DNA of 64,000 nt, taken from Gemmatimonadota bacterium. GTDB taxonomy: Bacteria > Gemmatimonadota > Gemmatimonadetes > Longimicrobiales > Gaopeijiaceae. Below are positions 32,217 through 35,961 of this stretch, in pieces. A model generated the notes under the pieces. That model did no database searches. It saw nothing but the letters and a program-made list of their open reading frames with translations, and was not told the origin of the DNA. Where the stretch lies: NCBI GenBank assembly GCA_028873595.1, contig JAPPOV010000028.1:1-64000 (forward strand), given 5' to 3'. Each line of letters begins with the position of its first letter. Positions within the stretch are counted from its first letter, which is position 1. Position numbers and translations under genes: made by a program.

Positions 32217-32311
32217 GGAGAGGGCTGTCTGAATCTTCAACCTTGACACTGTAGCTTCCAAAGTCCGAATTGGAGGATACTTCAAACATATGTCACGTAC
32301 GGGATATCACG

Positions 32312-32875
32312 GTGGACACCATACTCACCGATGAGCTGCACGAGTTTCGCGCACCTCAGACCATGACAACCCTCGAGCTCGGCGACAGTCTCGCCCGGCT
32401 CGTCTGGGAGAGCTTCTCCGACTTCATCTCTCAAGACGACGTCGAGACGCCCCTCGCGGACATGAGTACCCTCTATGACGACGATGGTACCAATGCTCGC
32501 ACAGCTGAAGAAGCTCTGATCTTCTTCATGTGGGCCCATACCCGCGGTGTCCAGCTCGCGTTCTTCGGACGCACACCCGACGAACGGATTCGTCAGGGCC
32601 TCGACGCATTGCACGCCGCAGTGTTCGAGGACATGGTGGACAACGGGACGCCCAAGTCTCAGCTGCCACTCTTCGAGCAGCGCGTCAGCGCACGCTACGC
32701 CGAATACCATCAGGCAGCCGCCGAGTCCGACACCAAGCTCGGCGAGGCAGTCTCACGTCACATCCTCGGCGGCATCGTGCGTGACACGACGTCCGCCGCG
32801 ATTCAAGAACGGGCGATCGCCGTCGCGAACCCACTGAAGGATTTCCTGGAAGACGTGGAATTGATCGAGGCCTGA
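32312..32875 (+). CDS. Unknown soluble helical protein
   Basis: About 187 residues if read from GTG 32312; an in-frame TTG at 32270 and ATG 32363 are alternatives, and none has a good ribosome site. It is alpha-helical with no signal peptide: SLARLVWESFSDFISQDD, ARTAEEALIFFMWAHTRGVQLAFFG and KDFLEDVELIEA. No catalytic motif was seen. It ends at a hairpin terminator shared with the convergent oxygenase cluster. Function unknown. Confidence 0.62.
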   Translation: MDTILTDELHEFRAPQTMTTLELGDSLARLVWESFSDFISQDDVETPLADMSTLYDDDGTNARTAEEALIFFMWAHTRGVQLAFFGRTPDERIRQGLDALHAAVFEDMVDNGTPKSQLPLFEQRVSARYAEYHQAAAESDTKLGEAVSRHILGGIVRDTTSAAIQERAIAVANPLKDFLEDVELIEA

Positions 32876-32882
32876 GACGGCC

Positions 32883-32921
32883 AAGCTGGGCCTGACTCCA
32901 CTCTTACGTCAGGCCCGGCTT
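32883..32921. terminator. Hairpin terminator between convergent genes
   Basis: 14-bp stem (32883-32896 with 32908-32921, one G-U) with an 11-nt loop, followed on the plus strand by TCTCCACTTC. It overlaps the end of the zinc-ribbon gene and would stop both the 32312 gene and, read in reverse, the oxygenase operon. Confidence 0.7.
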
Positions 32922-33151
32922 CTCCACTTCATCATCTCGAACGGACTCCGGCACGATCGGCACCAGTAGGTGCTGACGGACGCGTGTGACCCAAATGAGT
33001 TCATGATTTCGGTCTCATTCTGATCACAAAACGGGCACGACGGCGCACTCGGCAACACGTCGGGTGATTCCTCGCGCCGTTCTTCGGCGCTGTAGGAAGA
33101 CGTGCGGACTTCGCGGTTCAGCCGGCCCCGAAAGGGAGGTCGGATCGCCAT
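32909..33151 (-). CDS. Zinc-ribbon protein equal to the C-terminal half of PaaD
   Basis: 80 residues from ATG 33151 (MAIRPPFRG). The C-terminal half has four cysteines C39, C42, C64 and C67 (CPFC and CRSC) around a FGSHAS segment and ends PFEMMKWR. Spacing and the aromatic tail match the zinc-binding end of phenylacetyl-CoA epoxidase accessory protein PaaD, which normally follows a DUF59 domain in one chain. Here the DUF59 part is a separate gene at 34176-34535, with paaB and paaC between. It starts 4 nt after the paaC stop, so it is last in the operon. Confidence 0.75.
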   Translation of the reverse strand: MAIRPPFRGRLNREVRTSSYSAEERREESPDVLPSAPSCPFCDQNETEIMNSFGSHASVSTYWCRSCRSPFEMMKWRSRA

Positions 33152-33155
33152 CGCC

Positions 33156-33944
33156 CTACTCGACCAGCAGGGCGCGGTTGCGGTCTCCCCGCGCGCGTTC
33201 GCAGGCTTCTTCGTCCGGCCGGCCGCCGGTGCGGCCACGAGCCTCGTCCCAGTCCGTCGCCGCGTGAACCGCGTCAACGTTGATACCGACAAGTGATACG
33301 AGGTCTCGTACCGCATTGCGGAAAGCCGCGAGCCGGTCCTCGGCAGGGTCGATGACGCCGGCATCAACCATCGCTCGAGCGGATGCGTCATCTGCGCCGA
33401 CCCACGCAAGGAGAGCTGGGAGCATCTCTTCACTCGCGGACGTCAACAGGTCTCTCGCCTCGCCTTCTGTCTCGGCAAGTCGACGATACCAGGCCGAACC
33501 GAGGCTCGCGTGGTATTCCTCCTCCGCGAGCATCTTGGGCACGCGATTCTGCGCCAACTCGACACGACCTACGGCAAAGGACCGAAGCATCGTGGACAAC
33601 GCGCCATCTGCGAGCGCCATCAGCGCGACTAGGCCCGCCCAGTCGCCCCGTTCGTGGTCGAGCGGAGCGATCGACGCGAACTCTGCGCCCGACCGATCGT
33701 ACTCGACTGGACCCGGATCGATGTCGAGGCCCTTGAGCATTGCGTACAGCAATCGGGCGTGGCCCCACTCGTCTTGCGCCATCGACGCGGTGGAAACCCC
33801 GGTCTCGATCGACGGAGCCCCGAGAGTCCAGTCCGAGTAGCGGATCCCCATCAGGCGCTTCGAATCCGCGAGCGTGATGATCAGCCGGGACAGCGCGTTA
33901 CGCAGGGCGCTGTCAAGCGTCGAAAGATCGAGGGGCTCAGACAT
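33156..33944 (-). CDS. paaC: PaaC-like subunit of a multicomponent diiron oxygenase
   Basis: 262 residues with the ferritin-like helical fold of PaaC, the structural partner of PaaA. Recognisable are RLIITLADSKRLMGIRYSDWTLGAPSIE, QDEWGHARLLYAMLKG and MLAEEEYHASLG. PaaC keeps some acidic/His remnants but does not carry the working iron site in the known enzyme. Its C-terminus is Arg/Glu-rich and unusually charged (GRTGGRPDEEACERARGDRNR). It overlaps paaB by 8 nt and is 4 nt from the zinc-ribbon gene. Soluble cytoplasmic. Confidence 0.82.
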   Translation of the reverse strand: MSEPLDLSTLDSALRNALSRLIITLADSKRLMGIRYSDWTLGAPSIETGVSTASMAQDEWGHARLLYAMLKGLDIDPGPVEYDRSGAEFASIAPLDHERGDWAGLVALMALADGALSTMLRSFAVGRVELAQNRVPKMLAEEEYHASLGSAWYRRLAETEGEARDLLTSASEEMLPALLAWVGADDASARAMVDAGVIDPAEDRLAAFRNAVRDLVSLVGINVDAVHAATDWDEARGRTGGRPDEEACERARGDRNRALLVE

Positions 33945-34164
33945 CGGCGGTCCGCTGGGCTTCGACGAACAACCCGTCCGTCCGGTTCACGGGAAGGACG
34001 TTCGTGCGCTTCACTACGCACATCTCGAACCACTTCTCTTCGCTGTATGTCGTCCACGCATAAATCTTGGCGGTCTCATCGTCGAAGGCATCGACGTAGC
34101 CGACATGTTGGAGACGGTCGCCGCGTTCTTTGCGCGTGAAGACGTCGTAGACGAACTCTTTCAT
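33937..34164 (-). CDS. paaB: PaaB-like small subunit
   Basis: 75 residues starting MKEFVYDVFTRKERGDRLQHVGYVDAFDD, matching the PaaB opening (xYEVFVRxKRGxxHxHVGSxxAxD), with SEEKWFEMCVV in place of the VSIWVV segment. It is shorter than the about 95 residues usual for PaaB, ending before the C-terminal tail. PaaB bridges PaaAC units in the phenylacetyl-CoA epoxidase. It lies 11 nt after the DUF59 gene and overlaps paaC by 8 nt. Confidence 0.82.
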   Translation of the reverse strand: MKEFVYDVFTRKERGDRLQHVGYVDAFDDETAKIYAWTTYSEEKWFEMCVVKRTNVLPVNRTDGLFVEAQRTADV

Positions 34165-34175
34165 TGTTCTCTTGA

Positions 34176-34535
34176 TTAGGCACTCACGCCGAGTTTCTTC
34201 AGCTTGTCTCGCCCTTCGGGCGTAATCCGCTCACTCGTCCACGGGGGATCCCACACCTCGACGAGCTCGACGGAATCGATCCAGTGTTCCAATTCGAGTC
34301 GGTCGGTGATGTCCTCCCGAATGAACTCCATGCACGGACAGGCAGTCGCCGTGAAGGTGAGATCGATCCGCGCGACGCCGTTTTCATAAGCGACGCCATA
34401 GATCAGCCCCAATTCGGGCAGGCTAATCGGAATCTCCGGATCCAGCACTTCCTGCAGCAGGTTCCACGTCCCCTGAACTCGATCTTCCGGAGGCTCATCG
34501 AGCGGTGCGGACCAGAGATCGCGACCGCCGCTCAT
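34176..34535 (-). CDS. DUF59 protein equal to the N-terminal half of PaaD
   Basis: 119 residues from ATG 34535; the frame upstream to 34667 lies in paaA and is rejected. Diagnostic stretches are VLDPEIPISLPELGLIYGV, a reactive-Cys loop TATACPCME, and DPPWTSERITPEGRDKLKKLG, which is the PaaD end-of-domain sequence. In canonical PaaD a zinc-binding domain follows, but here the chain stops (GVSA) and that domain is encoded at 32909-33151. DUF59/MIP18 proteins help load Fe-S clusters or metal. It lies between paaA (67 nt) and paaB (11 nt). Confidence 0.82.
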   Translation of the reverse strand: MSGGRDLWSAPLDEPPEDRVQGTWNLLQEVLDPEIPISLPELGLIYGVAYENGVARIDLTFTATACPCMEFIREDITDRLELEHWIDSVELVEVWDPPWTSERITPEGRDKLKKLGVSA

Positions 34536-34602: not shown

Positions 34603-35544
34603 TCAGGCAGCCAGCCAGCGCTCGACATCCATGCGCGAGCGCTGTACGGACTCCACGTAGATCTCATTCATGGGGCCACGCCCCTTCCAACGCTCGAACA
34701 CGGCATCCCACGAGATCTCGCCCTCATCGAACGCCCAGTGTTTGTCGACGGCGTCGTACTGACACGGGAACGGATAGTCGAGGACGTACTCGCCCTTCGC
34801 CTCGTCCCAATGAGCCGGCGCATCCAGACCGAGCTCTTCGCAGAGCGGTACGGTCGAAGCCATCCAGACCTGACGCAGCTGGTCATTCGTAAGTCCCTTC
34901 AGCTTGAAGTCGAGCTGACCCGAGTGCCGCTTCATGTCGTCCGGAAGACCGAACCATTCGATCGTCATCGGGAACATCCAGTCGACGGCGCGCTGCACGA
35001 GCTCACGGGCTTCACCGCCCGCCTTCGCCAGGCGGCGCATCCAGACCTCGCCGTGCCGCAGATGGAAGGTCTCCTCCATCCCGATCTTTACGAGGGCCCG
35101 CTTCAGTGGCGCATACGATGTGTTCTCGTGCACGTCGGTGAGCAGCGTGATGCCGGCACGGTCAAAGAACCCCGTCGCAACCACGAGCTCAGCCCAGTTG
35201 TCGAGCGGCTGATCGAAGCCGTACGGATGCTTGAACTCGTGAGGCTGACGCCCGTACACGAGGTGCTCCTTTGATTCGCCGATATCCTCGAGCAGGCGGT
35301 ATGCGATGTTCGCGTGCGCGAGCTCATCCTGAATGATCGCATGCGCGCTCACCTGGGTGTTTGTCGACGGCGCGTACCGAGCTGCCATCCAGTACGACGG
35401 CGCACTCATGAGTTCCGTGTCGGCCTGGACGGTAAGCTGAACCCGAAGAGCCTTTCGGTACCCTTCGGTCATGTCCTCGGGGCCTTCCACCATATAGCCC
35501 GCCTGGACCTTCTGCATCAGTTCTTCGTCGGTGAACCGGCTCAT
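34603..35544 (-). CDS. paaA: PaaA-like catalytic diiron subunit
   Basis: 313 residues of ferritin-like helices with the six residues expected for the diiron site: Glu44 (TEL), Glu74 and His77 (DELAH), Asp128 (FDRAG), Glu158 and His161 (ETFH). Numbering is mine and the ligand match is from family memory. The known enzyme, phenylacetyl-CoA epoxidase, needs PaaABC plus reductase PaaE. The acyl-CoA pocket cannot be judged here, so the substrate may differ. Promoter-like elements precede it (35559-35624). First gene of the core operon. Confidence 0.85.
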   Translation of the reverse strand: MSRFTDEELMQKVQAGYMVEGPEDMTEGYRKALRVQLTVQADTELMSAPSYWMAARYAPSTNTQVSAHAIIQDELAHANIAYRLLEDIGESKEHLVYGRQPHEFKHPYGFDQPLDNWAELVVATGFFDRAGITLLTDVHENTSYAPLKRALVKIGMEETFHLRHGEVWMRRLAKAGGEARELVQRAVDWMFPMTIEWFGLPDDMKRHSGQLDFKLKGLTNDQLRQVWMASTVPLCEELGLDAPAHWDEAKGEYVLDYPFPCQYDAVDKHWAFDEGEISWDAVFERWKGRGPMNEIYVESVQRSRMDVERWLAA

Positions 35545-35661: not shown

Positions 35662-35961
35662 TCAGAGTCCCAGCGAGGCACGAATCAGCGGACTGATTCT
35701 CTCAGGCGTCCACGGCGGATCGAACGTAAGCTCGACCTCCGCAGACTCGACCCCATCTACGGCTTCGATCGCCGTCTTCACGTCTTCGACGATCTGCCCG
35801 GCGACCGGACACATCGGTGACGTGAGCGACATGACAGCATCGACGTGATCACCGTCGACCTCGATATCGTAAATGAGCCCGAGTACAACGAGATCAAGCC
35901 CCAGCTCGGGGTCTTTCACTCCTTTGAGCGCGGTGCGGATGTCCTTCTCGGTCACGGCCAT
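35662..35961 (-). CDS. MIP18/SufT-like DUF59 protein
   Basis: 99 residues, single DUF59 domain, typical of bacterial MIP18/SufT/PaaD-related proteins: VKDPELGLDLVVLGLIYDIEV, SLTSPMCPVAG (Cys probably reactive) and DPPWTPERISPL. Such proteins help deliver Fe-S clusters. It is distinct from the PaaD-like DUF59 at 34176: sequences differ and both are kept in one cluster. Its start overlaps the HupE-family stop by 10 nt, and 117 nt separate it from paaA. Confidence 0.88.
   Translation of the reverse strand: MAVTEKDIRTALKGVKDPELGLDLVVLGLIYDIEVDGDHVDAVMSLTSPMCPVAGQIVEDVKTAIEAVDGVESAEVELTFDPPWTPERISPLIRASLGL

Follow-up and report, generated by a model that had tools for sequence, protein, structure and literature searches.

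Did PaaD, the protein of phenylacetyl-CoA epoxidase (paa) operons in which a DUF59 domain and a zinc ribbon share one chain, come apart into two genes, or were its halves separate to begin with? The question is raised by a 64,000-nucleotide (nt) stretch of a Gemmatimonadota genome (contig JAPPOV010000028.1; hereafter the window, to whose positions all coordinates refer), where both halves occur as genes of their own in one operon. An earlier note, made from the letters alone, had taken this for a PaaD split inside a paa-type oxygenase operon. Six co-directional genes lie on the minus strand from 35961 to 32909 in the order S-A-D'-B-C-Z, the labels by which they are called here:

35662..35961, minus strand: S, SUF-type DUF59 protein, 99 amino acids (aa), upstream of A
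34603..35544, minus strand: A, PaaA-like diiron catalytic subunit, 313 aa
34176..34535, minus strand: D', stand-alone DUF59 half of PaaD, 119 aa
33937..34164, minus strand: B, short PaaB-like bridging subunit, 75 aa
33156..33944, minus strand: C, PaaC-like subunit, 262 aa
32909..33151, minus strand: Z, stand-alone PaaD zinc ribbon, 80 aa

The positions claimed before for D' (34535-34176) and Z (33151-32909) and the place of B (34164-33937) and C (33944-33156) between them were confirmed, all on the minus strand, and, as the next open reading frame (ORF) past Z (32270-32875) lies on the opposite strand, Z is indeed the final gene. S, the second DUF59 gene, did not figure in the earlier note. 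We consider it probable that the operon encodes a diiron oxygenase which is matured by separate D' and Z proteins, and that this separate state is ancestral to the fused PaaD.

Assignment of the two halves was straightforward. Z belongs to Pfam family PF23451 (Zn_ribbon_PaaD; 49.6 bits against a cut-off of 27), and its other Pfam matches all stayed under their cut-offs, which disposes of the possibility that it is a member of some other, unrelated zinc-ribbon family. D' falls into PF01883 (DUF59; 48.3 bits). On the 146 positions of the PaaD model TIGR02159, D' aligns with 1-89 (64.3 bits) and Z with 97-144 (41 bits), and because these spans are complementary, D' and Z together amount to nearly one full PaaD, as had been proposed from their sequences. 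Each scores below the whole-protein cut-off of 108.15 bits, neither being a PaaD in the sense of two domains in one chain. The best NCBIfam match of D' is NF041868, the haloarchaeal PaaD (88.3 bits, under the cut-off of 180), and Z matches NF041869, the haloarchaeal ribbon named 'PaaE', with 24.9 bits (under the cut-off of 100). In a sample of the family, PF23451 was matched by 35/35 ribbons and NF041868 by 34/34 D' proteins. A profile search of the genome gave Z as the single PF23451 match above cut-off (six weaker ones reached 11.9-14.4 bits) and three PF01883 matches in total, one of them inside a 474-aa frame; these counts revealed no intact paaD beside which D' and Z would be redundant, and a full-length copy elsewhere in the genome, which the earlier note had named as a reason to abandon its claim, was ruled out by the lone above-cut-off ribbon.

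Relatives of the operon were collected by searching genome contigs with the A protein (84 relatives, 80 kept, nearly all titled as Gemmatimonadota groups) and from plasmid records, which contributed loci of Thermus, haloarchaea and Agrobacterium. A first annotation of 146 loci, including the window, distinguished 92 with the order A-D'-B-C-Z (66 with S in front), 43 with a fused PaaD after C, two haloarchaeal ones with the order A-B-C-D'-Z and adjacent separate genes, and nine incomplete ones. Ten added loci brought these sets to 96 A-D'-B-C-Z cassettes (95 distinct), seven haloarchaeal A-B-C-D'-Z loci and 44 fused loci (38 distinct, six being longer copies of the same genomes). The 96, from which the seven haloarchaeal loci and the nine loci incomplete in the first annotation were excluded by hand, stem from the genome-contig search (72), further Gemmatimonadota genomes (13), plasmid records (10) and the window itself. 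All 96 complete cassettes keep the order without exception, in Gemmatimonadota, one Neomarinimicrobiota record, Thermus, haloarchaea and Agrobacterium, and S is present in 66 of them, some of the remaining cassettes being cut by contig ends. Because B and C intervene between D' and Z in 96/96 (892-1265 nt separate the matched stretches), the separation is not due to a frameshift; frameshift and assembly error were both ruled out by these concordant cassettes, and the arrangement is stable, as had been supposed. Some host titles in the sample may be wrong: a locus titled Rhodospirillaceae (L041) encodes an A 99% identical to that of the window, and four titled Gammaproteobacteria (L070, L072, L073, L074) have Gemmatimonadota-like cassettes with A 80% identical, all from metagenome-assembled genomes.

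The linkage was also examined independently of the operon by searching Z and A separately in 117 genomes of the taxonomic order of the window. A was above cut-off in 85, Z in 83 (12 Z rows under the cut-off being excluded) and both in 80, and in 79 of these 80 Z shared contig and strand with A and lay downstream of it by 1398-1829 nt, too regular a linkage to be due to chance. In the five genomes with A only and the one without linkage, A ends 0.1-1.8 kb from a contig end, on the side where Z is expected, and in one of them (G400) a truncated Z is visible under the cut-off; the three genomes with Z only have C-Z cut at a contig end. The single-chain form is also found elsewhere in the Gemmatimonadota, as the best 30 PF23451 matches of a search of the phylum are all fused to DUF59. 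A tblastn search with Z against 72,556 plasmid records gave 51 matching records, and the annotated features under the matches, in the 40 listed of the 51 records, each read paaD/paaJ or 'hypothetical protein'. In seven plasmid loci (L121, L122, L123, L124, L164, L165, L167) the ribbon frame downstream of C has no listed feature of its own, and in L167 it overlaps with the listed feature of a hydratase; this may only reflect an incomplete PLSDB gene table.

Which state came first could be addressed with the enzyme subunits, as PaaA and PaaC are paralogues and a joint tree therefore roots each half by the other. A first tree held 90 rows from 45 loci, two of them haloarchaeal, and a second 86 rows from 43 loci with more haloarchaea and Deinococcus. 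The fused loci formed a single clade in both halves of both trees (second tree 100/100 for A and 100/98 for C), and in the second tree they were joined by the haloarchaeal loci with support of 100/100 (A) and 100/99.8 (C). The two haloarchaeal loci of the first tree paired with each other as sister to the fused ones; in the second, paralogue-rooted tree all seven were paraphyletic to them in both halves. One clade of all separate-domain loci was rejected by the approximately unbiased (AU) test with p = 3.9e-5 (A) and 0.005 (C), values that are not strictly prior because the groups were chosen after the first tree. A tree of the DUF59 domains, built without SufT and other DUF59 families, agreed in that fused PaaD was one clade (100/98). 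With fused PaaD confined to a single clade inside the separate-domain lineages, the ancestral state is more likely to have been D' and Z apart; one fusion suffices, and a fused ancestor would imply at least two fissions. This suggests that the separate domains are older and that single-chain PaaD arose by fusion, the reverse of the rearranged or split PaaD proposed before.

The premise that PaaD is known as one chain could not be upheld either, as haloarchaeal paa operons carry adjacent, separate D' and ribbon genes in 7/7 loci and the separate halves are already catalogued by NCBIfam, which has a model for each (NF041868, NF041869). It is nevertheless the fused form, of about 170 residues, that has been described (PMC4498308, cited here and below from its available sections), and it occurs in 38 distinct loci of our sample, so that one might suppose a fused ancestor and two independent breaks into D' and Z, one in this family and one in haloarchaea. 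We regard this as unlikely in view of the number of fissions that the rooted tree demands, of the rejected separate-domain clade and of the paraphyletic haloarchaeal loci. The haloarchaeal ribbons, moreover, have the fifth cysteine typical of PaaD (2/2 counted, and seen in five more), and this cysteine together with the order A-B-C-D'-Z is what would be expected of a stage before fusion.

Compared with bacterial PaaD, the proteins of the window have the same two domains, the DUF59 cysteine and the CxxC-21-CxxC ribbon, but they are encoded by two genes that B and C separate, and the fifth ribbon cysteine is missing. The haloarchaeal operons share the separate genes and differ in that D' and Z are adjacent after C and the fifth cysteine is present. 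In Z the four cysteines Cys39, Cys42, Cys64 and Cys67 (32951-33037) are invariant; CxxC pairs occurred in 138/138 ribbons checked and the exact CxxC-21-CxxC spacing in 137/137 counted. The fifth cysteine, at loop position 16, was found in 43/43 fused and 2/2 haloarchaeal ribbons, compared with 0/92 in the A-D'-B-C-Z family (S 87, M 3, A 2), where a cysteine stands at loop position 20 in 20/92 and at position 2 in 1/92. Cys66 of D' (34338-34340) is kept in 92/92 family, 43/43 fused and 2/2 haloarchaeal rows.

The second half of the question is what enzyme the two proteins would serve. A and C both belong to PF05138 (195.9 and 101.7 bits), and B reaches 23.8 bits with PF06243, slightly under the cut-off of 27. 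At the equivalog level of NCBIfam none of the three passes: A has 127 bits with the PaaA model TIGR02156 (cut-off 280), B 22.4 bits with TIGR02157 (85.45) and C 69 bits with the PaaC model (133.35). For E. coli PaaA the expected iron ligands are Glu42, Glu72, His75, Asp126, Glu155 and His158 (PMC4498308). The equivalents in A are E44, E74, H77, D128, E158 and H161, each conserved in 95-96 of the 96 loci of the family, and the best PDB matches of A are E. coli PaaA entries (4ii4, 3pvr). The substrate-facing Lys103 and Phe108 of E. coli PaaA also have mostly conserved equivalents (of 95 rows, K in 90, R in 5 and F in 92). The lysine bridge Lys68/Glu49, to which a part in electron transfer has been ascribed as a suggestion (PMC4498308), is missing: neither the lysine nor the glutamate occurs in any of 95 family rows (one further row gapped), and A of the window has Y51 and I70. 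The bridge lysine is present in 13/13 fused and 7/7 haloarchaeal PaaA, in which the latter differ from A of the window, and the glutamate in 13/13 and 6/7.

C differs from its relatives in another way. In the window K29 (33858-33860) occupies one diiron ligand position and E59, H62, D113, E142 and H145 are kept; across the family the sixth position is lysine in 96/96 (in a separate alignment K29 was invariant in 35/35) and the other five are conserved in 93-96 of 96. Haloarchaeal C proteins keep all six ligand positions (one D for E in 1/7). In the PaaC of fused operons, the three Glu positions retain Glu in 1, 1 and 0 of 44 sequences, and His75 is present in 11/44, Asp126 in 34/44 and His158 in 44/44. 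The AlphaFold2 model of C was of high confidence (predicted local distance difference test, pLDDT, 96.3), and its best solved matches were PaaAC entries and PaaC (1otk). PDB entry 4mud (SSO1313 of Sulfolobus), which matched A with 31.2 bits and C with 25.1 bits, may represent another branch of the superfamily.

With E. coli PaaABCE the cassette thus has in common the PaaA-type diiron ligand positions, the PaaA/PaaC pair and a PaaB-like subunit; it is set apart by the lost lysine bridge, by a C with five of six ligands, by D' between A and B, and by the rest of the pathway. In 14 genomes of the genus of the window, 6 of which are at least 90% complete, the reductase PaaE gave no match in 14/14, a negative result that has no positive control because 0/14 control genomes pass the cut-off either. 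PaaK was above cut-off in 0/14 (sub-cut-off in 1/14; control genomes 1/14 above) and PaaZ likewise in 0/14 (sub-cut-off in 14/14; control genomes 2/14 above). Loss of the lysine bridge fits the absence of a PaaE match in the genus. In haloarchaea, unlike here, paaK is annotated close to four paa loci (L125, L149, L160, L161). Judged by its sequence, the predicted enzyme is not a standard phenylacetyl-CoA epoxidase, with A under the PaaA cut-off, no lysine bridge and no PaaE, PaaK or PaaZ above cut-off. The earlier label of a paa-type operon therefore stands in the wide sense and fails in the strict one. One could still see in the cassette an ordinary phenylacetyl-CoA epoxidase that has diverged, given the same subunit types, the six diiron positions, the largely conserved Lys103/Phe108 equivalents and the sub-cut-off PaaZ and PaaK matches; the scores of A and C, the lost bridge and the pathway searches, that for PaaE with the limit just given, make this improbable.

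In Thermus, haloarchaea and Agrobacterium the cassettes lie near genes for enoyl-CoA hydratase, acyl-CoA synthetase or CoA-transferase, and also near those for aldehyde dehydrogenase, thioesterase and ABC transporters, in varying combinations, a setting that points to acyl-CoA catabolism. Five of six haloarchaeal A-D'-B-C-Z cassettes have a gene for a 2Fe-2S protein nearby. In Gemmatimonadota the chromosomal neighbours are conserved, the commonest occurring in 58/80 loci (L041-L120; clustering with the cassette excluded), and among them no aromatic-pathway gene was recognised by eye, without a family-library scan. The convergent 201-aa ORF past Z (32270-32875, plus strand) has a relative beside the cassette in 30/80 of the same loci, matched by eye. 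A promoter scan found 0 sites against 0.7 expected, and 4 terminator-like sites were found against 1.9 expected (standard deviation 1.6).

What D' and Z do may be approached from PaaD, which is reported to be needed in vivo and not in vitro, counts as a protein of unknown function and has been suggested to act in maturation (PMC4498308, PMC9493321, the latter also from its available sections). In the mechanism that we propose, the operon would encode a diiron oxygenase of the PaaABC type whose substrate is probably an acyl-CoA; A would hold the diiron site and B and C would form the scaffold. In vivo, D' and Z would jointly help with loading or assembling the metal site of A and so take over, as separate proteins acting in trans, the task that PaaD performs with two linked domains. 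S may assist in iron-sulphur or iron handling. S scores 78.6 bits with PF01883 and 96.6 bits with the SUF-type model TIGR02945 (under the cut-off of 143.4), thus resembling the SUF-associated DUF59/SufT proteins (TIGR02945, TIGR03406) of the same DUF59 family.

D' also matches these SUF-type models (TIGR02945 with 63.4 bits, TIGR03406 with 66 bits), which would be in line with a general SUF-type role of D' and with Z as a small, unrelated zinc protein retained through operon inertia, the two not cooperating at all. The preference of D' for the haloarchaeal PaaD model, a model matched by all 34 members sampled, its place in the DUF59 tree with the PaaD domain and not with S (whose clade stands apart with 100/100), and the linkage of D' and Z kept across bacteria and archaea make such independence very unlikely. 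A solved DUF59 protein, TTHB138 (2cu6), is related to D' of the Thermus cassette with 61.3 bits over 87 residues and in that comparison is not identical to it; the term TTHB138 was not found in the literature searched.

A different role for Z is suggested by the name of its haloarchaeal counterpart. If Z served in electron transfer, like a rubredoxin, and not in maturation, 'PaaE' would be functionally right, and the four invariant cysteines, the lack of a PaaE-type reductase match in the 14 genus genomes and the lack of an annotated reductase beside two haloarchaeal paa operons would all find an explanation. Operons with an annotated PaaE reductase, however, still have the ribbon in their PaaD, the in vitro system runs without PaaD (PMC4498308), and a 2Fe-2S protein is at hand in most of the haloarchaeal cassettes mentioned above. 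In the model of Z the ribbon blocks were confident (93 and 94; the first 30 residues 60-67), and its fold matches were led by zinc ribbons (NrdR, Elf1/ELOF1, RNA polymerase subunits), none with E < 0.001, rubredoxin being absent among the best 50 of 506. Taken together, an electron-carrying Z seems quite doubtful. The four haloarchaeal 'PaaE' genes at L125:11533-11700, L149:7288-7458, L160:8732-8899 and L161:8532-8696 match the PaaD zinc ribbon and not a reductase, and the name looks misleading.

Several points weigh against maturation by ancestrally separate D' and Z, besides the limit on the AU values given above. The Natribaculum locus (L162) lies below the other haloarchaea and the fused loci in the A half and next to the fused ones (96/77) in the C half; the A-D'-B-C-Z family as one clade has weak support in the C subtree (81/78), where three or four rows are long-branched. 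The fused and haloarchaeal loci come solely from plasmid records and Gemmatimonadota, and the sampled archaea are haloarchaea only, so that the polarity of the tree applies within this sample. The operon of the window encodes no electron donor. The sequences establish the domain identities, the constant gene order, the retained ligand positions and, for the loci sampled, the polarity of the tree; oxygenase activity, the acyl-CoA substrate, the part in maturation, the contact between D' and Z and any function of S are predictions.

We nonetheless prefer the separate-first reading, in which the A-D'-B-C-Z family would be old and the sister group of the known phenylacetyl-CoA epoxidases, with separate D' and Z as the ancestral condition and PaaD derived by a single fusion in the lineage of the bacterial epoxidases. 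A fuller version we can offer only tentatively, at somewhat less than even confidence: that the cassette represents an undescribed family of PaaABC-type diiron oxygenases of bacteria and archaea, sister to all sampled phenylacetyl-CoA epoxidases, which would use another electron route (no lysine bridge, no PaaE) and another acyl-CoA, with a C of modified metal site and invariant lysine, and with D' and Z as the ancestral parts of a PaaD that was fused in the lineage where bacterial C lost its metal site. We found neither the A-D'-B-C-Z cassette nor the order of fusion reported in the literature searched, most subscription journals lying outside its scope, and neither the separate halves nor the cassette are described in the available sections of PMC13186573, PMC4498308, PMC9493321 and PMC2653477.

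For the family, C offers a graded series, from six ligands in haloarchaea through five and a lysine here to the bacterial proteins in which most are lost, and this would illustrate how a catalytic subunit may have become a structural one. On plasmids, members of the oxygenase family that the cassette marks bear the annotation PaaA or phenylacetic acid catabolic protein, while the genus of the window shows no standard pathway above cut-off. Finally, D' and Z would be a natural two-protein PaaD, each half of which can be deleted, purified and assayed separately, making the role of PaaD directly testable.

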